Source: Streptomyces sp. 840.1
GTDB lineage: Bacteria > Actinomycetota > Actinomycetes > Streptomycetales > Streptomycetaceae
Length of the DNA: 64,000 bases
Direction of reading: 5' to 3'
Assembly (NCBI RefSeq): GCF_003751445.1
Contig: NZ_RJUU01000001.1
Location: 5,508,001 to 5,572,000 of the forward strand
The translations under genes and the position numbers were made by a program. The notes beneath the pieces are model-generated. The model did no database searches and had not been told where the DNA came from. It was given only the letters and a program-made list of their open reading frames with translations. Numbering within the stretch: position 1 is the stretch's first letter; each line of letters opens with the position of its first letter. Positions 39,531 to 45,759 of the stretch are shown in pieces.

Positions 39531-40481
39531 ATGACATTGGCGAGTGCAACCGTGCAGTCCGGGCGGCACGGGCCGCCGGGCGGCCCGCACGGCAGGCGGC
39601 CCACACGGGTCAACCGGAACGCCGGAACCTGGTTCCTGGTGCTGCCGGCCCTCATCCCGATCCTGGTCCTCAGCGTCGGCCCGTTGCTCTACGGCATCGC
39701 CCTGGCGTTCACCGACGCCCAGTCGGGCCGTACCAGGTCCACGCAGTGGACCGGGGTGCTGAACTTCCAGGACCTGCTCCACGACGGGCTGTTCTGGGAG
39801 TCGTTCCGGATCGGTCTGGTGTGGGCGGTCGGCGTCACCGTCCCGCAGTTCGCGCTGGCGCTCGGCCTGGCGCTGCTGCTCAACCAGAACCTGCGGATGC
39901 GGTGGCTGGCACGGGCGCTGGCGATCATCCCGTGGGCGATGCCGGAGGTGGTCGTCGGCATCATGTGGCGGCTCGTCTACAACCCGGACGCCGGAATCCT
40001 CAACGAGAGCATCCGCGATCTCGGCCTCGGCGACGGCCGGGACTGGCTGACCGGCCTCGCCACCGCGCTGCCCGCGGTGATCCTGGTCGGGGTGTGGGCC
40101 GGTATGCCGCAGACCACGGTCGCCCTGCTGGCCGGGCTGCAGAACACCCCGCACGAACTCCATGAGGCGGCCGCCCTGGACGGCGCGGGCGCCTGGCGCC
40201 GCTTCCGTACCGTCACCTGGCCGGCGCTCAGGCCGGTCGCCCTCTCCATCACCGCGCTCAACTTCATCTGGAACTTCAACTCCTTCGCCCTGGTCTACGT
40301 GCTGACCAACGGCGGACCCGGCGGCCGTACCCGGCTGCCGATGCTCTTCGCGTACGAGGAGGCCTTCCGGTACGGACAGTTCGGCTACGCCGCGGCCATG
40401 GGCTGTGTGATGGTCGCGGTGATCTCCGTGATCCTCGCCGTGTACCTCGTGGGACGGCTCACAGGAGGTGAGGACCGATGA
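39531..40481 (+). CDS. Carbohydrate ABC transporter permease, MalF type
   Basis: A 316-residue inner-membrane subunit with six helices and the permease EAA loop (ELHEAAALDGAGAWRRFRTVTWPALRP). Helices include WFLVLPALIPILVLSVGPLLYGIALAF. It pairs with the MalG-type permease encoded next and the lipoprotein at 41317. No ATPase gene is present; streptomycete sugar importers of this class commonly share the ATPase MsiK. AAGGGGG 8 nt upstream supports ATG 39531. Confidence 0.94.
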   Translation: MTLASATVQSGRHGPPGGPHGRRPTRVNRNAGTWFLVLPALIPILVLSVGPLLYGIALAFTDAQSGRTRSTQWTGVLNFQDLLHDGLFWESFRIGLVWAVGVTVPQFALALGLALLLNQNLRMRWLARALAIIPWAMPEVVVGIMWRLVYNPDAGILNESIRDLGLGDGRDWLTGLATALPAVILVGVWAGMPQTTVALLAGLQNTPHELHEAAALDGAGAWRRFRTVTWPALRPVALSITALNFIWNFNSFALVYVLTNGGPGGRTRLPMLFAYEEAFRYGQFGYAAAMGCVMVAVISVILAVYLVGRLTGGEDR

Positions 40482-41317
40482 GTCTGCCCACCCGCAGGGC
40501 CGCGCGCGCCGGGCAGTACCTCGCGCTCCTGTGCTACCTGGTCTTCCTGGCGTTCCCGTTCGTCTGGCTGATCTCCACCGCCTTCAAACCGGCGCCCGAG
40601 CTCGGCTCCCTGCACCCCACCTGGATCCCCGAGCACCCGACGCTCGACAACTTCCGGGCCGCCTTCGACGAGCAGCCGCTGCTGCGGGCCGCCGCCAACT
40701 CGCTGATCGCCGCGCTCTCGGCCGGGATCATCGCCGTCGTCATCGCGACCCCGATGGCGTACGTGATGGCCCGCCACCGCTCGCGGCTCTCCACCGCCGC
40801 CACCGGCTGGGTCGTGGTCAGCCAGGCGTTCCCGTTCGTCCTGCTGATCATTCCGCTGTTCCTGGTGCTCAAGTACCTGCACCTGATCAACACGCTGTGG
40901 GGGCTGATCATGGTGTACGTCGTCTGGTCGCTGCCCTTCGCGCTGTGGATGCTCGTCGGATACGTACGGGCCGTCCCGCTTGAACTGGAGGAGGCGGCGG
41001 CGGTCGACGGCGCGAGCCGCCTGCGGACCCTCGTCTCGGTCACCGCGCCACTGCTCGCGCCCGGGATCGTCGCCACCGCGCTCTTCGCCTTCATCACCGC
41101 GTGGAACGAGTTCTTCTTCGCGCTCGTCCTGCTCAAGACCCCGGAGAAGCAGACCTTGCCGGTCGTACTGACCCACTTCCTCGGCGCGGAGGGCGCGAGC
41201 GACCTGGGACCGCTCGCCGCCGCCGCGTTCCTCGCCACCCTTCCCTCGCTCGTCCTGTTCGCGGTCATCCAGCGGCGGATCACGGGCGGCATGCTGGCCG
41301 GGGCGGTGAAGAGCTGA
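40478..41317 (+). CDS. Carbohydrate ABC transporter permease, MalG type
   Basis: A 279-residue permease with six helices and the EAA loop (LELEEAAAVDGASRLRTLVSVTAPLLAPG). Its start overlaps the MalF-type stop by 4 nt (ATGA), and its own stop overlaps the start of the binding-protein gene by one base (TGATG), so the three are translated together. The usual order (binding protein first) is reversed here. Confidence 0.94.
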   Translation: MSLPTRRAARAGQYLALLCYLVFLAFPFVWLISTAFKPAPELGSLHPTWIPEHPTLDNFRAAFDEQPLLRAAANSLIAALSAGIIAVVIATPMAYVMARHRSRLSTAATGWVVVSQAFPFVLLIIPLFLVLKYLHLINTLWGLIMVYVVWSLPFALWMLVGYVRAVPLELEEAAAVDGASRLRTLVSVTAPLLAPGIVATALFAFITAWNEFFFALVLLKTPEKQTLPVVLTHFLGAEGASDLGPLAAAAFLATLPSLVLFAVIQRRITGGMLAGAVKS

Positions 41318-42609
41318 TGCGCGCACTGGTACGCGACGCGGCCGTGGCCGCCACCGCACTGGCCCTGCTGCTCACCGGGTGCGGCGGGGGAGACGGTGGC
41401 CGGGACGACGGGCGGATCACGCTCCGCTTCCAGTCGCTGGCCTGGCAGAAGGAGTCCGTCGACGCCAACAGGCAATTGGTGAAGGAGTGGAACGCGAGCC
41501 ATCCCGAGGTCCGCGTCGAGTACGTCCAGGGCAGCTGGGACAGCGTCCACGACCAGCTCCTCACCTCGTTCGAGGGGGACGAGGCACCCGACGTCATCCA
41601 CGACGCGTCCGACGACCTCGCGGACTTCGCCTACGGCGGCTACCTCGCCGACCTGCGCACCCTGCTGCCCGACCGGCTCACCGCCGACATCCCGCAGCAG
41701 AGCTGGCGCACCAGCACGTTCGACGACGGCGTCTTCGGCGTGCCCTTCCTCCAGGAACCCCGTGTCCTGATCGCCAACACCAAGGTCCTCAAGGCCTCGG
41801 GCGTCCGCATCCCGACCCCGGCCAGGCCCTGGAGCTGGCCGGAGTTCGGACAGGTCACCAAGAAGCTCACCGGCAAGGGCCGTTACGGCGTCGCCTGGCC
41901 GCTCAAGGAACCGGTCTCCGTCACCCTGAACCTGGGCCTCTCGGCCGGCGGCGAGCTGTTCCACCGAGGCGCCGACGGAAAGGTCACCCTCGCGATGGAC
42001 GACGGCGACCTCGTCGTGCCGGGGACCATCCACGACCAGGTCAACACCGACCACAGCGCCGCCCGCACCGCGCTCGGCATGGGCGGCGGCGACGCGCTTC
42101 CGGGCCTGTTCGGCGGCAAGTACGCCATGGTCCCGCTCGGCTTCTCCTACCGCCAGCAGGTGGCCGAACAGGCCCCGAAGGGCTTCGAGTGGACGGTGCT
42201 GCCCGCACCGGCCGGCAGCGACGGCCTGGCCCAGGGGGTGAGCCCGCAGACCCTGTCCGTCGCCGAGGACAGCCCGCACAAGAAGGAGGCCGTGGAGTTC
42301 ATCGACTTCCTGCTGCGGCCCGCCAACATGGTGCGCCTGGCCAAGGGCGACTGGATGCTGCCGACCGGCAGGGCGGCGCTCGCGGACCCCTCGCTGCACA
42401 CCGCGGACCTGGGCTGGTCGACCGGCGCCGCCCTCGCGGGCGCGCTGCGCTCCGCGCCCGCCCAGTCCGTGCGCGGCTACCCCGAGTGGAAGGACAAGGT
42501 CGCCACGCCCGCCCTCCAGGAGTACTACAGCGGTGCGATCGACGCGGCCGAACTGAGGAAGCGTCTGGTCGAGGACGGGAACCGGGTGCTGGCCCGCTAT
42601 CAGCGATGA
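41317..42609 (+). CDS. Extracellular sugar-binding lipoprotein
   Basis: A 430-residue substrate-binding protein of the MalE class (SBP_bac_1). The signal peptide AAVAATALALLLTGC ends in a lipobox, so the protein is anchored outside the membrane. Typical stretches: WNASHPEVRVEYVQGSWDS, APDVIHDASDDLADFAYGGYL. It is the last gene of the importer operon. Which sugar is taken up cannot be read from sequence. The window's low-GC island begins after its stop codon. Confidence 0.93.
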   Translation: MRALVRDAAVAATALALLLTGCGGGDGGRDDGRITLRFQSLAWQKESVDANRQLVKEWNASHPEVRVEYVQGSWDSVHDQLLTSFEGDEAPDVIHDASDDLADFAYGGYLADLRTLLPDRLTADIPQQSWRTSTFDDGVFGVPFLQEPRVLIANTKVLKASGVRIPTPARPWSWPEFGQVTKKLTGKGRYGVAWPLKEPVSVTLNLGLSAGGELFHRGADGKVTLAMDDGDLVVPGTIHDQVNTDHSAARTALGMGGGDALPGLFGGKYAMVPLGFSYRQQVAEQAPKGFEWTVLPAPAGSDGLAQGVSPQTLSVAEDSPHKKEAVEFIDFLLRPANMVRLAKGDWMLPTGRAALADPSLHTADLGWSTGAALAGALRSAPAQSVRGYPEWKDKVATPALQEYYSGAIDAAELRKRLVEDGNRVLARYQR

Positions 42610-43024
42610 CTTCGCAGGAGAACGACAGACCATTACCGACCAGTACGTATCTTTCCCGCCGCGAGGCGGGGGTGATCCGGTCGCGGGACGCCGCCCGGAG
42701 CCGCGGCAAACATGCTGAACGGTTGTGATTCAGTCAATCATCGGCATGAATTGGCCTCTTCACGCTCTTGCCGGGGCCTGCGGCCACGGGTATCGCAGGG
42801 AAATTCTGCGTTTCTCTTCGGCTTATCTGGTTTCAACTGAAACGGAACGCGTTGCCGCTTTCTCCGGCGAGAAGATCATTGACAACTCCAATTGCTCTGG
42901 GCTGTACTCCTTTCGGCGGTCAGCGGTGGTGCGGATTCCCTGTCGAGATCGGGAGTCCGTATCGCAAGTGCGGCCATGCCATGTTCCGGGAAGTAAATTC
43001 AGAGCAACAGATGGAGGTGCTGTT
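42610..43024. other. Low-GC upstream region of the RiPP precursor gene
   Basis: From about 42715 on, GC content falls visibly below the surrounding DNA and codon third positions lose their GC bias in all frames, so no ordinary streptomycete gene is present. A promoter-like pair sits at 42879-42908. The frame of the precursor gene stays open upstream to 42725, but the composition does not support a longer protein. Confidence 0.6.
42879..42908 (+). promoter_or_regulatory. Putative promoter of the atropopeptide cluster
   Basis: TTGACA (42879-42884) is a full consensus -35 box; after 18 nt comes TGTACT (42903-42908), a fair -10. This would give a 5' leader of about 110 nt before the precursor start. 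Consensus TTGACA is rare in such GC-rich DNA, which adds weight. Confidence 0.5.
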
Positions 43025-43105
43025 ATGAAGTTCCTTTTTCAGCTGAAGGAAAAGATGACGCCGGAGAAGAGCCTGAAGGCGTACGCCTGGTACATCTGGT
43101 ACTGA
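43025..43105 (+). CDS. Atropopeptide (tryptorubin-type) RiPP precursor peptide
   Basis: A 26-residue peptide: a 20-residue leader beginning MKFLFQLKEKMTPEK and ending KAY, and a C-terminal core AWYIWY (bases 43085-43102) directly before TGA. The core equals the amino-acid sequence of tryptorubin A, a hexapeptide whose aromatic side chains are joined by C-C and C-N bonds. A cytochrome P450 gene follows 116 nt later, as in the known atropopeptide clusters (precursor plus one P450). GGAGG at 43013-43017 sits 7 nt before the ATG. The leader is charged and probably helical, serving for P450 recognition; how it is removed is unknown. The exact core match plus P450 neighbour makes this call strong. 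Confidence 0.93.
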   Translation: MKFLFQLKEKMTPEKSLKAYAWYIWY

Positions 43106-43155
43106 GCCGGCCTGTGAGTCCAGTCGGCTGAGGGGTGCGGCTCCTCGGCCGGAGT

Positions 43156-43194
43156 CCGTGCCCGGCGTGGCCCACACCGGCCCGCCGGGCACGG
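43156..43194 (+). promoter_or_regulatory. Intercistronic hairpin between precursor and P450 genes
   Basis: CCGTGCCCGGCG (43156-43167) pairs perfectly with CGCCGGGCACGG (43183-43194); inside, GGCC/GGCC can add four more pairs. It lies between the precursor stop and the P450 start. Such a hairpin can act as a partial terminator or protect the 3' end, giving more precursor mRNA than enzyme mRNA, as in other RiPP operons. Confidence 0.65.
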
Positions 43195-43221
43195 GCCGCC
43201 TCCCGCTTCTTGGAGAACACG

Positions 43222-44268
43222 ATGCAGATATCCGGTACCGGCAGCCGTGCCCGGGACGTCGTCTTCGCGCCGAGACTCCAGGCGCTTCTGCGAGACCACC
43301 TGGGCGAGGAGGTCTTCCGCCTCGACCCCGGAACCGTCGCCGTCGCCGGAGCCGGCCTGACCGACCGCGTCCTGGCCGCCAGGCCGGCCACCGAGGACGA
43401 GCGCCCGACGTTCAAGCCCCTGCAGGGGCGGTCCATTCCGCGGGCCGAGGCCGCCACCGTCATGCAGGCCATCGGCCGCGACGTGCGGGCCGCCCTGAAG
43501 AAGCCCGTTCCCGAACACGCCGACCTGCGCGGTGAGTGGCCGCGCGTGGGTCACGTATACCTGCGTGACCTGATCCTCGGCGCCGATCCCTACCGGCTCC
43601 GCGTCCTCATGGACCGGGCCCTGGAACTGACGCCCAAACTCACCTGGTCGGTCATCGTCGCCGGGGCGGCCCTGCCGGTTCGGCCCCGGCCGGGCGCCCC
43701 CGTCTCCGCCATCGCGGGCCTGACCGCCGAGGCGAAGAGCTACGGCGACCGCCGCTACGCCATGGGCCTGTACCGCAGGGCGGCGGCCCCGGTCTGCTTC
43801 ACCGTCTCGACGCTCGTCGCCAACGCGCTCTGGCTCGGATCGCCGTTCGGCGAAGAGACGTCGAACCGGAACATCCTCTACGAGTCCATGCGGTTGCTGC
43901 CGCCCTCCTGGAACATCCTGCGAAGGGCGTCCCCGGAGTACGCCGCGCTCGACCCCCGGATCGGCGCCGGTGACGACATCCTGCTCCTGCCCCTGCTGAG
44001 CCACCGGGACCCCGCGCTCTGGGAGGACCCCGATGTGTTCCGGCCCGAGCGCTGGGACAGCCTCGACCCGGACGATCAGCCCGGCTACCTGCCCTTCGGC
44101 CATGTGTCCGAGCGGTGCTGGGGGCGGCACATGGTGATGCCACTCGCCGAGATGCTGCTCGACATGGTGCGTGGCGGGGGACTGACGGTGGACCCCGCAC
44201 AGGTGTCCCGCGACGTCCCCCTCGCCGGGCTGATGGGTGTGACCGGAGTACGCATCGTCCGACGCTGA
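43222..44268 (+). CDS. Cytochrome P450 of the atropopeptide cluster
   Basis: A 348-residue P450, short for the family but with the essentials intact: K-helix ESMR (Glu221, Arg224) with PPSW, the PERF-like RPERWDS, and the heme loop LPFGHVSERCWG with Cys299 as ligand. By analogy with tryptorubin biosynthesis it should make all aryl-aryl and aryl-nitrogen crosslinks of the AWYIWY core, with electrons from host ferredoxins. ATG 43222 has GGAG 6 nt upstream; GTG 43135 is a weaker start. GC content returns to the genome level here, unlike the upstream region. The N-terminal part has little similarity to common biosynthetic P450s. Confidence 0.92.
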   Translation: MQISGTGSRARDVVFAPRLQALLRDHLGEEVFRLDPGTVAVAGAGLTDRVLAARPATEDERPTFKPLQGRSIPRAEAATVMQAIGRDVRAALKKPVPEHADLRGEWPRVGHVYLRDLILGADPYRLRVLMDRALELTPKLTWSVIVAGAALPVRPRPGAPVSAIAGLTAEAKSYGDRRYAMGLYRRAAAPVCFTVSTLVANALWLGSPFGEETSNRNILYESMRLLPPSWNILRRASPEYAALDPRIGAGDDILLLPLLSHRDPALWEDPDVFRPERWDSLDPDDQPGYLPFGHVSERCWGRHMVMPLAEMLLDMVRGGGLTVDPAQVSRDVPLAGLMGVTGVRIVRR

Positions 44269-44280
44269 ACCCGCCCGCCC

Positions 44281-44325
44281 CACTCCGCCCCGCTCGTGAT
44301 GAATCATCGCGAGCGGGGCGGAGTG
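44281..44325 (+). terminator. Terminator after the atropopeptide P450 gene
   Basis: CACTCCGCCCCGCTCG (44281-44296) pairs perfectly over 16 bp with 44310-44325; the 13-nt loop can itself fold (GATGA/TCATC). It begins 12 nt after the P450 stop and marks the end of the two-gene cluster. Confidence 0.92.
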
Positions 44326-44556
44326 CTGTGCGCGGAAGCGGGACCGGTGGCGTGTCCGCCGGTAACGGGCAGTGCGTGTGTCGGACTTGGGTGCGGCTGG
44401 TCGACTTCTTGTGACGAAACCTTGCTCAGGCGGGCACAGGCGCAGGAAGGGTCTTGATCTGAGCGCGTCAATCGGCGAGGGTTTCGAGCCAGCCCCCGGA
44501 GATCTTCCGGCCGAGGGCCAATCCCCCCACAAAGAATGACGAGGAGACCCCTCTTC

Positions 44557-45759
<1,203 letters not shown>

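Follow-up and report, generated by a model that had tools for sequence, protein, structure and literature searches.

Atropopeptide clusters are described, in the consulted sections of a published account, by the combination of a P450 of this class, a leader peptide with a KSLK motif and a tryptophan at core position 2, and more than 650 such clusters have been published (PMC11450843). Cores of the form xWxxWx are assigned there to the Bitryptide subfamily. The same text gives varsorubin B1 as a product with three bonds (one C-C and two C-N) and four protons lost, and already suggests a repeated origin of the tryptorubin core (PMC11450843).

We analysed a stretch of 64,000 nucleotides from Streptomyces sp. 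840.1 (the window; positions 5,508,001 to 5,572,000 of contig NZ_RJUU01000001.1) in which an earlier note had described a 26-codon gene with a good ribosome binding site, ending in AWYIWY just before the stop and followed by a single P450 gene, as an atropopeptide cluster. The coordinates and sequence of the small gene proved correct. The elements of the locus are listed below.

43013..43018, forward strand: GGAGGT, ribosome binding site of the precursor gene, six bases 5′ of its ATG
43025..43105, forward strand: precursor peptide gene, 26 codons, MKFLFQLKEKMTPEKSLKAYAWYIWY; assigned from its NF038372 match and its counterparts in relatives
43222..44268, forward strand: atropopeptide-modifying cytochrome P450, 348 amino acids; assigned from the Pfam p450 model (PF00067) and 58% identity to the sva (varsorubin) cluster P450
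44281..44325, forward strand: hairpin of 21 pairs 3′ of the P450 gene, a predicted terminator; assigned from RNA folding

Precursor peptide, P450 and flanking signals

The peptide carries KSLK at residues 15-18 of its leader and the core AWYIWY at residues 21-26, directly before the stop codon. It matches the NCBIfam model NF038372 (tryptorubin_fam, “tryptorubin family RiPP precursor”) with 64.2 bits and an E value of 9.6e-18, nearly twice the curated cut-off of 33, in agreement with the observation that AWYIWY is the residue order of tryptorubin A. Tryptophan occupies core position 2, and a second tryptophan at core position 5 fits the Bitryptide pattern. The stretch TGGAGGTG at the ribosome binding site is unchanged across four aligned relatives. 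Because all three published defining features are present, including a neighbouring P450 that resembles the characterised sva enzyme and whose kept relatives all have a precursor-like frame beside them, the interpretation as an atropopeptide cluster is supported by every sequence-level feature of the family. The expectation that standard annotation would probably miss so small a gene is dated, since NCBI has the above model and antiSMASH 8.0, in the portion of its description consulted, has a new atropopeptide rule (PMC12230676); either can catch it.

The P450 reading frame begins 116 bases past the precursor stop. A longer frame from GTG 43135 is also listed, but we set the start at ATG 43222 because GGAG precedes it and because it is kept in three aligned relatives (L002, L088 and L003). 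The Pfam p450 model covers residues 217-306 (51.2 bits). Searches of Pfam and NCBIfam yielded no curated model specific for atropopeptide P450s, and the top NCBIfam match, ApyO, scores 61.1 bits, far under its cut-off of 525. The 60 listed of 171 matches in a PDB sequence search cover mainly the C-terminal part. A structure model of moderate confidence (mean pLDDT 74.5) points to the P450 fold when compared with solved P450s by Foldseek (probability 1.00, TM ~0.5).

The textbook heme motif of P450s is FxxGxRxCxG. The enzyme has ESMR as its ExxR motif and FGHVSERCWG as its heme loop, in which the cysteine and the final glycine are present but the glycine and arginine of the textbook motif are absent. 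ERCW occurs in 95 of 98 distinct P450s compared, which indicates that this is the family's own form of the loop; the three others are L099 (EHCW), L083 (ARCW; the divergent second P450 of the same genome) and L037, a fragment. The loop can thus be called intact, as had been proposed, in the sense of the family motif but not of the textbook one.

A strong terminator had also been proposed to close the P450 gene. The hairpin is indeed very strong, with a folding energy of about -57 kcal/mol across 71 nt, and its counterpart in Streptomyces laculatispora (L002) has at least one pair altered on both sides. A T-run is absent, and for this reason the consensus terminator scan omits the hairpin. A sigma-70 promoter scan of positions 42600-44540, little informative for Streptomyces, found none, and no tRNA that could serve as an integration site was found between 38000 and 50000.

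Conservation and boundaries of the two-gene unit

Relatives of the P450 were collected from genome contigs and the best 80 of 113, with 58-95% identity, were compared. In all of these best 80, a frame ending in W-Y-x-W-x-stop lies at most 700 bases upstream of the P450, and 22 of them carry the exact AWYIWY core. Two of the outcomes that would have spoken against the reading of the earlier note, a P450 dissimilar to those of atropopeptides and a lack of conservation of the small gene in related genomes, are thus contradicted. A script that looks for a KSLK-type motif and an aromatic core upstream of the P450 recovers 78 of the 80 loci; it misses L022 and L065, where the leader motifs of the upstream frame are KNLK and SFKR, respectively. 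These two, together with L104 (also KNLK), have atropopeptide-type precursors outside the six leader variants searched in PMC11450843, as far as its consulted text lists them. Of 392 same-genus genomes, 42 (about one in nine) contain a match to NF038372 over the curated threshold, whereas none of 14 controls does.

Genes for a sugar ABC transporter (two permeases and a solute-binding protein, 39531-42609) lie directly upstream of the pair, and an S8 peptidase with an I9 propeptide domain is encoded downstream (44536-45759). When the neighbourhoods of the 80 loci were compared, mostly with 5 kb of flank and in some cases less, both flanking groups were found at only four (L002-L005), all of them close kin. 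S8 peptidase relatives (E <= 1e-150) are present in 71 of 150 same-genus genomes, 10 of which are among those with a precursor. Thirty of the peptidase loci were fetched, and the P450 is present at the window's own locus (L113) and at L117. At L114, with a peptidase 94% identical, about 230 bases separate the end of the solute-binding gene from the peptidase, and neither precursor nor P450 lies between them; the arrangement recurs at L139 and L142, where the gaps measure about 160 and 210 bases. With 1.5 kb of flank, the other 25 loci are uninformative on more distant genes.

The precursor and the P450 gene form a discrete two-gene unit, since their neighbours are common to only 4 of 80 loci and the flanking genes abut without the pair at L114. 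The difference from L114 may reflect a gain at the window or a loss in L114. Overall, the locus adds another member to a well-described family and opens no new question about it.

The nearest P450s, from the genome G166 (L088, 96% identical) and from S. laculatispora (95%), accompany precursors with an identical leader and the core AWYLWY. The next nearest are found with AWYLWY (L003) or AWYHWY (L091 and L004). Relative to S. laculatispora, 1 of 78 precursor bases is changed, in comparison with 29 of 220 fourfold sites in the P450 gene; the precursor offers just seven comparable fourfold sites, which makes its silent conservation suggestive at most. A quickly built tree of 97 P450s, of which 93 carry a core label, requires AWYIWY to have interchanged with other cores at least 15 times, a count that we take as an indication only because many branches are weak (33 of 94 inner ones). 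Removed before the tree was built were L037, as extracted a fragment of 105 amino acids, and 13 of 111 P450s identical to others; L022, L065 and L104, whose leader motifs fall outside the script pattern, and L083 carry no label.

A second P450 locus in the same genome

Outside the window, on the reverse strand, a candidate P450/JmjC peptide cluster spans C1:4135577-4137924. Its P450 (C1:4136635-4137684, reverse strand) is divergent, with 38-39% identity to the P450 in the window. The upstream open reading frame, MKKIKALVRKFKKDEDLANHAWVLHVI, ends in HAWVLHVI, and the downstream gene encodes a JmjC-domain protein (PF08007, 69.5 bits). We do not class the peptide as an atropopeptide because neither a KSLK motif nor an NF038372 match was found in it.

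The second P450 occurs in 5 of 392 same-genus genomes (E <= 1e-90), and all five also have both the HAWVLHVI-ending frame and the JmjC gene; loci L146-L148 and L152-L155 represent this cluster. The peptide itself was detected in 3 of 295 genomes of the genus. Among 396 genomes of the phylum, no other carries a P450 of this second type, the sole other match being G133 at 38%; a protein search lists 86 relatives. In the open-access literature searched for P450 and RiPP together with JmjC or cupin, the only papers on peptide biosynthesis were two on biphenomycins, and nothing related was found for WVLH with a P450. The crosslinks reported for the cyptides roseovertin, rubrin and lapparbin include one from Trp C7′ to His N-tau, as given in the consulted text of PMC12299652; by analogy, a Trp-x-x-His link would perhaps fit WVLH in the second peptide.

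Predicted product and comparison with known systems

Our preferred reading is that the downstream family P450 very probably crosslinks the AWYIWY precursor, yielding a polycyclic hexapeptide of rigid shape that is likely to be tryptorubin A. We infer expression, bond pattern, protease and product at this locus, and by analogy with characterised members the pathway would run as follows. The precursor would bind to the P450 through its leader helix and KSLK anchor. The enzyme would then link aromatic side chains by a C-C and a C-N bridge and form an additional C-N bond with the backbone, for a net loss of four hydrogens. A general cellular protease encoded outside the pair would remove the leader to release AWYIWY minus 4 H, with a calculated [M+H]+ of 897.393, and loss of the alanine would give the tryptorubin B form, WYIWY minus 4 H (calculated 826.356). 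Both values are predicted by applying the four-proton arithmetic of varsorubin B1 to the two sequences.

A cluster of the same family might instead place different or simpler bridges on AWYIWY and make an isomer of tryptorubin A or a related monocyclic compound. The product is not determined by the core sequence, since the single sva P450 installs two distinct bridge patterns on the same core, yielding both three-bond and one-bond products (PMC11450843, consulted sections). ScaB turns other precursors into monocyclic products, mostly tetrapeptides (PMC11450843 and PMC12352619, in the parts consulted). Moreover, the nearest relatives carry leucine or histidine at core position 4, so the P450 may not be tuned to isoleucine, and one base change could recently have presented it with AWYIWY as a new core. 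We nevertheless consider an altered bridge pattern, whether or not it arose in this way, unlikely. Two P450s only 59% alike make identical Amyxirubin B (PMC11450843, same sections), and lauA with lauB1 is reported, in the published text consulted, to give tryptorubin B, WYIWY; divergence of this size therefore need not change the product.

That the small frame is a chance match next to an ordinary P450 is next to inconceivable to us, even though short frames are plentiful (107 of at least 20 amino acids in about 11 kb). Its match to the curated model and the upstream W-Y-x-W-x-stop frames of the 80 relatives speak against chance, as does the single base changed relative to a locus whose flanks and P450 have diverged, and its conservation refutes this explanation. 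A dedicated leader protease would add a third gene to the cluster, and the S8 peptidase, 267 bases past the P450 on the same strand, could be cast in that role; proteases are often found beside atropopeptide P450s in Xanthomonas, as described in the consulted part of PMC11450843. However, the peptidase adjoins the P450 in so few loci, all from close kin, that we rejected it as such. The hairpin lies between the two genes, and the peptidase is found mostly in genomes outside the precursor-positive list, so that a dedicated role appears highly improbable. Because it is widespread in the genus, it is a possible general leader protease, as tryptorubin A formation by the two-gene unit would require.

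Several described systems can be set beside this locus. Biarylitides likewise arise from a tiny ribosomal peptide whose aromatic residues are crosslinked by a P450, and the model suggests that P450Blt (PDB 8u2m, rank 35 in the structure search) shares the P450 fold. However, their precursor has five residues (PMC13417212 and PMC12352619, consulted text) whereas the one described here has 26, and they are a different family. The varsorubin cluster of S. varsoviensis lies on contig NZ_JOBF01000044.1 (L078), the contig named for the characterised sva cluster in the consulted text of PMC11450843. As in the window, it consists of a precursor with a KSLK leader and a P450, the two P450s being 58% identical over 347 residues, but its core is SWYQWL instead of AWYIWY.

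The S. laculatispora locus has the same neighbourhood as the window, and the one differing precursor base (ATC here, CTC there) converts isoleucine to leucine at core position 4. The two strains thus provide a natural precursor pair, one base apart and with P450s about 95% identical, that would be useful for testing how this position steers bridging. Streptomyces sp. SPB074, which we take to be a tryptorubin-type strain, combines a KSLK-AH-AWYIWY precursor with a P450 that is 67% identical to that of the window; several leader residues are not the same (MRLLFSLKNKLSQQKSLKAH in SPB074) and its neighbourhood is different. With the tryptorubin A cluster (trp/try) itself, the locus has in common the AWYIWY residue order and the layout of a precursor gene and a P450 gene, and its two genes amount to a clean source of a highly rigid peptide scaffold that is difficult to obtain by synthesis.
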